Of a stretch of DNA of 64,000 nucleotides, positions 34,863-36,956 are shown piece after piece. Under the pieces are notes generated by a model. The model made no database searches. It was not told where the DNA came from and was given only the letters and a program-made list of their open reading frames with translations. Every line of letters begins with the position of its first letter. Position 1 is the stretch's first letter. Where the stretch lies: the NCBI RefSeq assembly GCF_900100335.1, contig NZ_FNFE01000001.1, forward strand, positions 1,178,001-1,242,000, in the 5' to 3' direction. Position numbers and translations under genes: made by a program. The stretch comes from Natronorubrum texcoconense. GTDB taxonomy: Archaea; Halobacteriota; Halobacteria; Halobacteriales; Natrialbaceae.

Positions 34863-35735
34863 TCACTCTCTCAGTGAGAGGGGAGCGAGGCTTGCGAACA
34901 GAGCCTCCTCCGTTCGCACAACCTCGCTTCCCTGGTCCGGAACCGTATTTAGCCAGAGGTCGAACCCCGGATCGGCAGTGGGTTCGACTCCGTCGACCGC
35001 GTCGCCCGTTCCATCCGCAGGGGTGACGGCGGAAGCCTCGATGTCGAGGATGTCCGGCAGCCCTCGTTCGGGCGCCCCGAACGCGACGGTCATCCCGTCT
35101 CGTTCGACGCGTCCGGCCAGCGTCTCGAGCCGCCCGACGGTGAGCTTCTCACCGAATCGGGAGGCTGCGATACAGACGCCGGCGTCCTCACGGCCGAGTG
35201 CTGCGGAGAGGTCCGTCCGCTCGACCGACAATCCCGGAAGGGGATCGTCGACGAGTTTCGCCCGGACCGGTCGTCGCGAAGAGATCCTGACGGTCACGCG
35301 CTCCCCCTCCTCGACCTCCATTTTCGGAGGAACGTTGAGGGAGATCGGGTGTTGCAAGCCGCAATTGACCCGGACGCGCCCTTCAGGTCCGACCTCGGTC
35401 ACGATTCCTTGTCTTGACGACCCCGAACCGTCAGATTCGGAGCCGGTCTGTGACATGGCGCGGAGCGGCGGCAAGATGCCCACATACTCCAGTTCGTCCC
35501 GCATCCCCCATGCCTCGTTGCGGAGGTATGGCGGCGTTGCGGCGTACCGCAAGACGGTGTGTACGAACCCGCCGTCGAATCGCCCGGTTTCGCCATCCCG
35601 GTCGGGATAGACGATCAGGCGATCGGCCCGGAAGATCGTCGCCGCGCGGGCGACGTATCCGAGTTTGCGAGTTGCCTCGCGTTTGTCCTCGGCTTCACGG
35701 GTGAGCGACGACGGGACGAGTATGCTGACGGTCAT
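34863..35735 (-). CDS. SPOUT-family RNA methyltransferase (putative RNA uridine N3-methyltransferase)
   Basis: A 290-residue protein and the first gene of the ribosomal operon. The alpha/beta knot fold is indicated by MTVSILVPSSLTREAEDKRE at the N terminus and by the late segment GMTVAFGAPERGLPDILDIE followed by FDLWLNTVPDQGSEVVRTEE. These form the trefoil knot that binds S-adenosylmethionine. Residues ~110-165 form an inserted OB-like beta domain (QGIVTEVGPEGRVRVNCGLQ). This COG2106 family stands just upstream of uL3 in many archaea and is thought to modify rRNA; the exact target is not shown. Confidence 0.88.
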   Translation of the reverse strand: MTVSILVPSSLTREAEDKREATRKLGYVARAATIFRADRLIVYPDRDGETGRFDGGFVHTVLRYAATPPYLRNEAWGMRDELEYVGILPPLRAMSQTGSESDGSGSSRQGIVTEVGPEGRVRVNCGLQHPISLNVPPKMEVEEGERVTVRISSRRPVRAKLVDDPLPGLSVERTDLSAALGREDAGVCIAASRFGEKLTVGRLETLAGRVERDGMTVAFGAPERGLPDILDIEASAVTPADGTGDAVDGVEPTADPGFDLWLNTVPDQGSEVVRTEEALFASLAPLSLRE

Positions 35736-36040: not shown

Positions 36041-36111
36041 GCGCTGGTAGTGTAGTGGTATCACGTGACCTTGCCATGGTCACAACCTGGGTTCAAATCC
36101 CAGCCAGCGCA
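36041..36111 (+). tRNA. tRNA-Gly (anticodon GCC)
   Basis: A 71-nt cloverleaf. The acceptor stem GCGCTGG pairs with CCAGCGC, with discriminator A at 36111. The D arm is GTGTAGTGGTATCAC. The anticodon stem TGACC pairs with GGTCA around TTGCCAT, giving anticodon GCC. The T arm is CTGGG-TTCAAAT-CCCAG. CCA is not encoded. Copies of its last ~20 bases recur downstream at 36233, 36380 and 36509. Confidence 0.95.
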
Positions 36112-36174
36112 TTTCTCCGAACACAACACCACGAGCGTTGCGTAGCAACGCGAGTATTCCGTGTTCGGAGAAAT
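36111..36174. repeat. Nested hairpin directly after tRNA-Gly
   Basis: The outer arms form a perfect 14-bp inverted repeat: ATTTCTCCGAACAC (36111-36124) and GTGTTCGGAGAAAT (36161-36174). The first arm begins on the tRNA discriminator base. Inside it GCGTTGC-GTA-GCAACGC (36135-36151) forms a second stem. Together they could fold into a long cruciform or RNA trailer structure. Confidence 0.8.
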
Positions 36175-36528
36175 CGTTCTTGGATTTGAACGAGACCAGT
36201 CGCGCGCAGCGGAGCGAGCACGTCTGGGCGTTGTTCAAATCCCGGCCAGCGCACTTCTGCGGCGAACAACTCCGACGAGCACACGCTACGCGGTGCTCGT
36301 CACTCGTGAGCCGTGAAGTCGCTCTGGGTTTGAATCAGACTGAGGTTCTGCGAGCGTAGCGAGCAGGTTCTCAGGCGTTGTTCAAATCCCAGCCAGCACA
36401 TTTTGACGGCGATCAGTTCCGATCGAGCACCGCGTACGCACGCTCGGTATCGGGAGCCGTGAAGTCGTCAGATCAGTCGCACGCAGCGTACGAGCCTGTC
36501 TGGCCGTTGTTCAAATCCCAGCCAGCAC
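36112..36528 (+). repeat. Array of three degenerate units, each ending in the tRNA-Gly 3' tail
   Basis: The tRNA tail GTTCAAATCCCAGCCAGCGC (36091-36110) recurs as GTTCAAATCCCGGCCAGCGC (36233-36252), GTTCAAATCCCAGCCAGCAC (36380-36399) and GTTCAAATCCCAGCCAGCAC (36509-36528). Unit lengths are about 142, 147 and 129 bp. Each unit begins with a hairpin: 36111-36174; GACGAGCAC/GTGCTCGTC at 36274-36301; CGAGC/GCTCG near 36434-36456. Each then has a CGCAGCG/GCGAGC-rich part before the tail. Units 2 and 3 share GAGCCGTGAAGTCG. The repeated tails resemble successive attachment sites, but no integrase gene is nearby. Confidence 0.85.
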
Positions 36529-36956
36529 GCGTATCTAGTGATTACTCGTGGATCCGGCAACTATCCTCGAGCCCGGACTCTCCCTCGAGGGCCACAACCG
36601 AGAATCAACCCGGCCATCGAGGCGGTGAGCAACCGATTACGTCGGAACTCGTGAAGAGCGATAGCGCATCGCCGTGTCGGAGCGTCATCTCGCTGGGAAC
36701 CGCCATCTGCCCGCAAATAGGCTCGAAGGCGTCGTTTACGAACGGAAACGACGAGTCTACGCTCGGTAACACGTGATTGTACTGACGGGACGACAGAGAT
36801 ATCCGTCTCGGTGACCATCAATAAAAGAATACTATCCGACTGATCGAACAGTTCTCGCAGGGTTTGGGTCAAAATCAGTAACTAATGCTGCCTGCGATTG
36901 GCTTTTATACCGTGGCTTGCTACGGGTCAATGGACAATTGAACTCGTGATTTAGCA
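36529..36956. other. Intergenic, 428 bp, upstream of the HalOD1 gene
   Basis: No credible gene. TTTTATACC around 36903-36911 lies about 46-54 bp before the ATG at 36957 and is a plausible TATA box, giving a leader of ~25 nt. Confidence 0.4.

Follow-up and report, generated by a model that had tools for sequence, protein, structure and literature searches.

The tRNA-Gly(GCC) gene of Natronorubrum texcoconense is followed by a tandem array of three short units, each of which closes with a copy of the last 21 nt of that tRNA (the tail). We call these units, which recur in nearly every haloarchaeal genus, an archaeal family of tRNA-linked repeats (TLRs) with a new antitail architecture, as they agree with the published definition of TLRs wherever it can be tested. 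With TLR-type units standing behind most tRNAs of an archaeal class, how they arose and spread and what they may do can be tested directly, and haloarchaea offer a tractable setting for this, with hundreds of natural variants, pairs of filled and empty sites and a motif shared across domains. The units also bear on how tRNA trailers, tRNA fragments and attachment sites are annotated in haloarchaeal genomes.

Anatomy of the array behind tRNA-Gly(GCC)

The host gene occupies positions 36041..36111 of the window, i.e., the whole stretch of 64,000 nucleotides that was analyzed (ARAGORN; 66.7 bits for the Rfam tRNA model). Like all elements of the array, it lies on the plus strand, and its final 21 nt (36091-36111) are the source of the tail copies. 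The three units described in the initial annotation are real: they measure 142, 147 and 129 bp, which are also the spacings of the tail copies, and out of 21 nt, these copies are mismatched to the source at 1, 1 and 2 positions. Reading away from the tRNA, a unit consists of a first hairpin (H1), an antitail whose sequence is in part the reverse complement of its own tRNA's tail, a core hairpin and the tail copy. Unit 1 (36112..36253) comprises an H1 hairpin (36111..36174) with two perfectly complementary 14-bp arms (36111-36124 and 36161-36174), the antitail CTTGGATTTGAAC (36179..36191), a core hairpin of the CCAGTCGCGCGCAGCGGAGCGAGCACGTCTGG type (36192..36232) and tail copy 1 (36233..36253; 1 mismatch). 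Unit 2 (36254..36400) has an H1 hairpin of type C (36254..36318; tested for covariation below), the antitail CTGGGTTTGAA (36324..36334), a core hairpin (36335..36379) with the tandem-GA tip CGAGCGTAGCGAG at 36351-36363, and tail copy 2 (36380..36400; 1 mismatch). Unit 3 (36401..36529) is degenerate; it ends in the distal and most divergent tail copy (36509..36529; 2 mismatches), and a search for an antitail within it yielded none that is recognizable. As initially annotated, the H1 arms vary in sequence from unit to unit and units 2 and 3 have a stretch, TCG(T/G)GAGCCGTGAAGTCG, in common.

Units 1 and 2 fold far more stably than their shuffled counterparts (z = -5.8 and -4.2, respectively), and unit 3 does not (z = -0.26). 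The H1 of the unit 1 type is also seen in other genera, the type C H1 of unit 2 in 13 further tRNA-Gly units, and other genomes have the CCAGTCGCGCGCAGCGGAGCGAGCACGTCTGG-type core of unit 1 after tRNA-Ser and tRNA-Arg. An Rfam search of the array region returned the tRNA and no other known family. Upstream of the gene, Rfam matches an L4-Archaeoglobi leader on the minus strand of the window (35287-35386; 74.5 bits with a gathering threshold of 34.5). This match falls within the open reading frame at 34863-35735, which adjoins a ribosomal protein operon, and it is also present at two other haloarchaeal tRNA-Gly loci (L118, L037).

Occurrence across the genome and the class

Own-tail copies were scored with at most 4 mismatches out of 21 and within 330 bp 3' of the tRNA. 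By this measure, 24 of 43 tRNA genes examined in this Natronorubrum genome have one downstream, each in the same sense as its tRNA, versus a single tRNA (1/43) with an upstream copy, which derives from the neighboring tandem tRNA-Asp array. When the same downstream stretches were compared with tails of unrelated tRNAs, no match had fewer than 4 mismatches. This control and the imbalance between downstream and upstream copies rule out a chance repeat. In a sample of 155 distinct tRNA loci, which is enriched for tRNA-Gly and for matches to the pattern described below, 106 carry at least one unit. The 150 distinct units at these loci have a median length of 134 bp and occur in arrays of one to four, with tail copies around 75-190 bp apart; over 20 nt, the tail is exact in 89 units and has at most one mismatch in 117. 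In several Natrialbaceae (L009, L020, L022, L028 and L036), the whole tRNA-Gly gene is tandemly duplicated together with promoter-like upstream DNA and the array. A genome of another family (G038) carries two near-identical tandem units behind tRNA-Gly (L128), which seem to stem from the recent duplication of an entire unit.

The initial annotation had proposed searching haloarchaeal genomes for tRNA 3' tails downstream of the intact tRNA. The antitail-core-tail pattern GATTTGAA-N18..48-GTTCAAATC is found in 204 of 242 genomes of the class Halobacteria, representing 69 of 74 genera, and the reversed control pattern has no matches in these 242 genomes. A wider pattern occurs in 52 of 53 Halobacteria versus eight of 242 genomes from other classes of the phylum, with control matches in four genomes among the latter; the pattern is thus rare outside Halobacteria within the phylum. 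Carriers include Natronococcus, Natrinema, Natrialba, Halobium and Halolamina. Out of 20 matches sampled from other families, 19 directly follow an intact tRNA and the twentieth follows an apparent tRNA-Val tail fragment. One core type is shared by units of Val, Arg, Met and Gly tRNAs and spans several families. This genome-wide and class-wide occurrence rules out an oddity of the single tRNA-Gly locus. It had been overlooked in the initial annotation, as had the antitails and the core hairpins.

Related hairpins also exist elsewhere. At L135 (position 493) and L147 (position 439), a tRNA-linked core type (GGAAGTCGCAGCC...GGAACGTCTTCC) lies beside GTGCTTTT-like sequence and away from any tRNA, so cores are not restricted to tRNAs. 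A second family of hairpin repeats, tandem GCGGTTCGGAGCGAACGAAGTGAGCGAGAACCGCGG... with the same nested tandem-GA grammar and not linked to tRNAs, is present on three contigs of one genome (G000; C2, C3 and C7) and was seen at L133, L134, L138 and L144. The genome has 93 occurrences of the tip motif CGARCGNAGYGAG versus 24 of its reversed control.

Antitails and tandem-GA hairpins

None of 5000 permutations gives as good a fit as that of the antitails to their own tRNAs, and the antitail tracks the differences of its tRNA between species. Its pairing with the tail is strong at the T-loop and the first bases of the T-stem and fades in the acceptor part. The hairpin formed by antitail and tail may therefore mimic the acceptor/T-stem end of that very tRNA, the core taking the position of the T-loop.

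H1 and core have a common grammar, in which a tandem GA/GA mismatch is flanked by short stems. Symmetric tandem-GA loops, whose purines all lie on the sense strand, number 168 in the 150 units versus two in shuffled sequences, and a motif search retrieved the tandem-GA motif in 115 of 150 units in sense, in one of 150 in antisense and in 1.35 after shuffling. The restriction of the GA mismatches to the sense strand rules out a symmetric DNA palindrome and points to a sense-strand molecule, either RNA or single-stranded DNA. Hairpin tips often read C-GNA-G.

The tail was initially noted to be conserved while the hairpins change by paired substitutions, and covariation bears this out. Six pairs in the 13 H1 hairpins of type C have changed on both sides, a level reached in none of 500 shuffles and in no slid version; the cores are of too variable length for a covariance model. 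Across all units, single mismatches in stems are almost equally often G-T (51) and A-C (50), versus 32 G-T and 2 A-C in haloarchaeal tRNA stems. Pairing is kept in the unit stems without the usual signature of RNA-level selection, and by the criterion of G-U tolerance, selection on RNA pairing is unsupported.

Filled and empty sites

Comparison of the empty locus in close relatives, another check proposed in the initial annotation, revealed exact filled and empty sites in sister genomes. Seven Natronorubrum genomes are empty at tRNA-Leu(cag), with the order TAIL|TCCACTTCT, and two others, G000 and G003, are filled (TAIL|unit|TAIL|TCCACTTCT); in G005, a unit is followed by TCACTTCT. At tRNA-Glu(ttc), a unit is present in G001 and missing in its sister G004, with an identical flank after the last tail. 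These two genomes are 99% identical over the 1.2 kb flanking another tRNA. A further filled/empty pair occurs at tRNA-Val(gac) in G007 and G006. The presence or absence of a unit is thus bounded exactly by tails, in line with the early suggestion of a non-coding miniature element associated with tRNA tails.

Units also change in content, and arrays turn over fast. At tRNA-Val(gac), G001 and G004 have H1 and antitail in common and differ in their cores, and at tRNA-Gly their arrays differ next to an identical tRNA and identical near-upstream DNA. Internal units have on average 0.33 tail mismatches, versus 1.03 for distal ones. On the genus tree, two tRNAs each require two or more changes, which may be either gains or losses. 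Exact loss through tail-tail recombination would give the same empty site.

Possible origin and mode of action

With middling confidence, we propose that the units are trailer cassettes that are co-transcribed with their tRNA, are cleaved by tRNase Z at their tRNA-like 3' end and vary in copy number by recombination between tails. The units would be transcribed as modular trailers, and tRNase Z would cut after the tRNA and after every tail, releasing free tRNA and short unit RNAs. Recombination between tails would alter the copy number, and cores could move between tRNA loci and genomes via the common T-loop sequence. We lean towards a tolerated, semi-selfish cassette. We count in favor of these trailer cassettes the sense-oriented copies of the own tail, the fit of the antitail to its own tRNA, the spread across Halobacteria, the position of 19 of the 20 sampled matches right after an intact tRNA, the filled and empty sites, the exchange of cores, the turnover of arrays at tRNA-Gly, the decay of distal tails, the sense-strand GA hairpins, the covariation of H1, and the tail copy and GA hairpin in common with E. 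coli TLRs. Two published observations likewise count in their favor, namely that the E. coli TLR RrB is transcribed (PMC8144298) and that tRNase Z of Haloferax volcanii cuts tRNA-like elements (PMC4326828). Against them count the lack of a G-U preference in the stems, antitails that are only partial in the acceptor part, and a genus tree that fits gain or loss. In addition, no clear signal of a terminator shift was seen behind the arrays, which also counts against co-transcribed trailers.

The main rival is a miniature mobile element acting at the DNA level, which we consider unlikely overall while taking it seriously, as stem mismatches without G-U preference leave room for a selfish element of this kind. 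Single-stranded hairpins of the sense strand would then be moved in trans by a REP or IS200/IS605-like transposase, or by another recombinase favoring tRNA 3' ends, and RNA would be uninvolved. Several features of the units suit such an element. Watson-Crick pairing is kept with G-T no more common than A-C, and the frequent C-GNA-G tips are very stable in DNA. Single-strand transposases recognize hairpins with strand-specific mismatches, and the mismatches in the units are indeed strand-specific. Exact filled and empty sites and the exchange of cores would also follow, and the tip motif is enriched away from tRNAs as well. Nonetheless, tail and antitail match each of many different tRNAs, which the fixed end of an element would not do, and no cognate transposase was identified. 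Moreover, elements of the IS200/IS605 type insert without target duplication (PMC3119063).

A by-product of mutation is a distinctly less probable origin. Here, the units would be generated where heavily transcribed tRNA 3' ends undergo slippage or fold-back template switching, and recombination would homogenize them, without function or mobility. The alternation of tail, antitail and tail with hairpins is what two fold-back switches might be expected to leave, and both the differences in presence among sister species and the decay of distal tails agree with it. On the other side, different tRNAs and different families share the same H1 and core types, a single strand conserves the tandem GA mismatches, and the pattern is largely limited to Halobacteria even though tRNA genes are universal. 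It is also partly shown that identical cores in unrelated lineages are inherited or transferred rather than remade.

The stack of attachment sites considered in the initial annotation, i.e., decayed ends of plasmids or viruses integrated at the tRNA, is disfavored and very improbable. Integration at tRNA 3' ends is common, and the 3' part of tRNA-Gly is present on three IMG/VR contigs (L093-L095), but this viral stretch begins at the anticodon arm and is around 44 bp long, and in L095 a Phage_integrase gene begins around 100 bp from it, whereas the tail copies are 21 nt long, start in the T-loop, enclose no genes at their short spacing and are accompanied by own-tail antitails behind most tRNAs. 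On these grounds (length, spacing, antitail and absence of genes), we reject it as largely refuted. Searches with the array gave no phage match and, among plasmids, only an N. bangense replicon (NZ_CP031306.1) that carries this tRNA-Gly array and one 32-bp match; the open reading frames listed for the flanks in the window include no integrase. The shared viral stretch lies at position 12914 in L093, 419 in L094 and 1009 in L095. In L093 and L094, unit-like hairpins follow the tRNA-Gly end, and proviruses may abut or carry such arrays.

Comparison with known elements

Several known elements resemble the units in part. Attachment sites of tRNA-integrating elements likewise duplicate a tRNA 3' end; unlike the units, they have a longer identity and enclose genes and an integrase, as in L095. 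The tRNA-like elements (t-elements) of H. volcanii are non-tRNA sequences with a tRNA-like end on which tRNase Z and RNase P act, similar to what is proposed for the units, but the one described precedes 5S rRNA and has no tandem copy of the tail of a neighboring tRNA (PMC4326828). Haloarchaeal palindrome-associated elements (PATEs), which derive from IS605-type elements and lack target duplication, small mobile repeats and bacterial REP/BIME are also short non-coding hairpin repeats (PMC3119063). In contrast to the units, they have no link to tRNA tails.

The closest counterparts are the TLRs of E. coli. The initial annotation knew of no named element with this design; this is not quite right, since the TLRs share the defining feature (PMC8144298), although the literature searched gave no relevant report of such repeats in archaea. 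TLRs, first described in E. coli in 1978, are repeats whose 3' end is identical over 18-19 bp to that of the tRNA or rRNA upstream, and no function is known for them except for the rRNA-linked RrA, RrB and RrF (PMC8144298). E. coli has 22 such units at ten loci, and the 3' end of the RrB transcript maps 3 nt past the repeat (PMC8144298). Like the haloarchaeal units, the E. coli TLRs (tyrTV with RttR, argVZQ, lysV; RrA/RrB/RrF) are tandem units of around 110-180 bp behind a tRNA or rRNA. In terms of the TLR definition, the haloarchaeal units directly follow a tRNA gene in the same sense, copy its 3' end (identically over 20 nt in 89 of 150 units) and number one to four per locus, within the one to five of the definition. 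RtT RNA (Rfam RF00391) has the same position and general plan. Its Rfam model matches all four tyrTV units and none of the haloarchaeal units tested, and so detects no sequence homology between the two sets.

The two sets also differ in detail. The haloarchaeal tail copy of 21 nt begins one step earlier in the T-loop and has no CCA, compared to 18-19 bp in E. coli. Hairpin loops are mostly GNA triloops in haloarchaea and tetraloops in E. coli TLRs, and the haloarchaeal antitail is regular and longer. In E. coli K-12, a tail copy follows each of tyrT, tyrV, argV, argZ, argQ and lysV. An antitail is significant at tyrV (4/2000) and argV (19/2000) and not at the other four of these six loci. All six spacers contain a sense-strand GA-mismatch hairpin, versus 0.09 expected. 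The scale is also different, with haloarchaeal units behind most tRNAs and in nearly every genus as opposed to the few loci of E. coli. Common descent, transfer or convergence may underlie the likeness. A bolder and rather doubtful proposal is that E. coli TLRs and haloarchaeal units make up one cross-domain class of structured cassettes exploiting tRNA 3' ends, in which the mimicry of the host tRNA end by tail and antitail would let tRNA 3' processing tolerate and release them, and the tandem-GA hairpin would be a shared functional motif.
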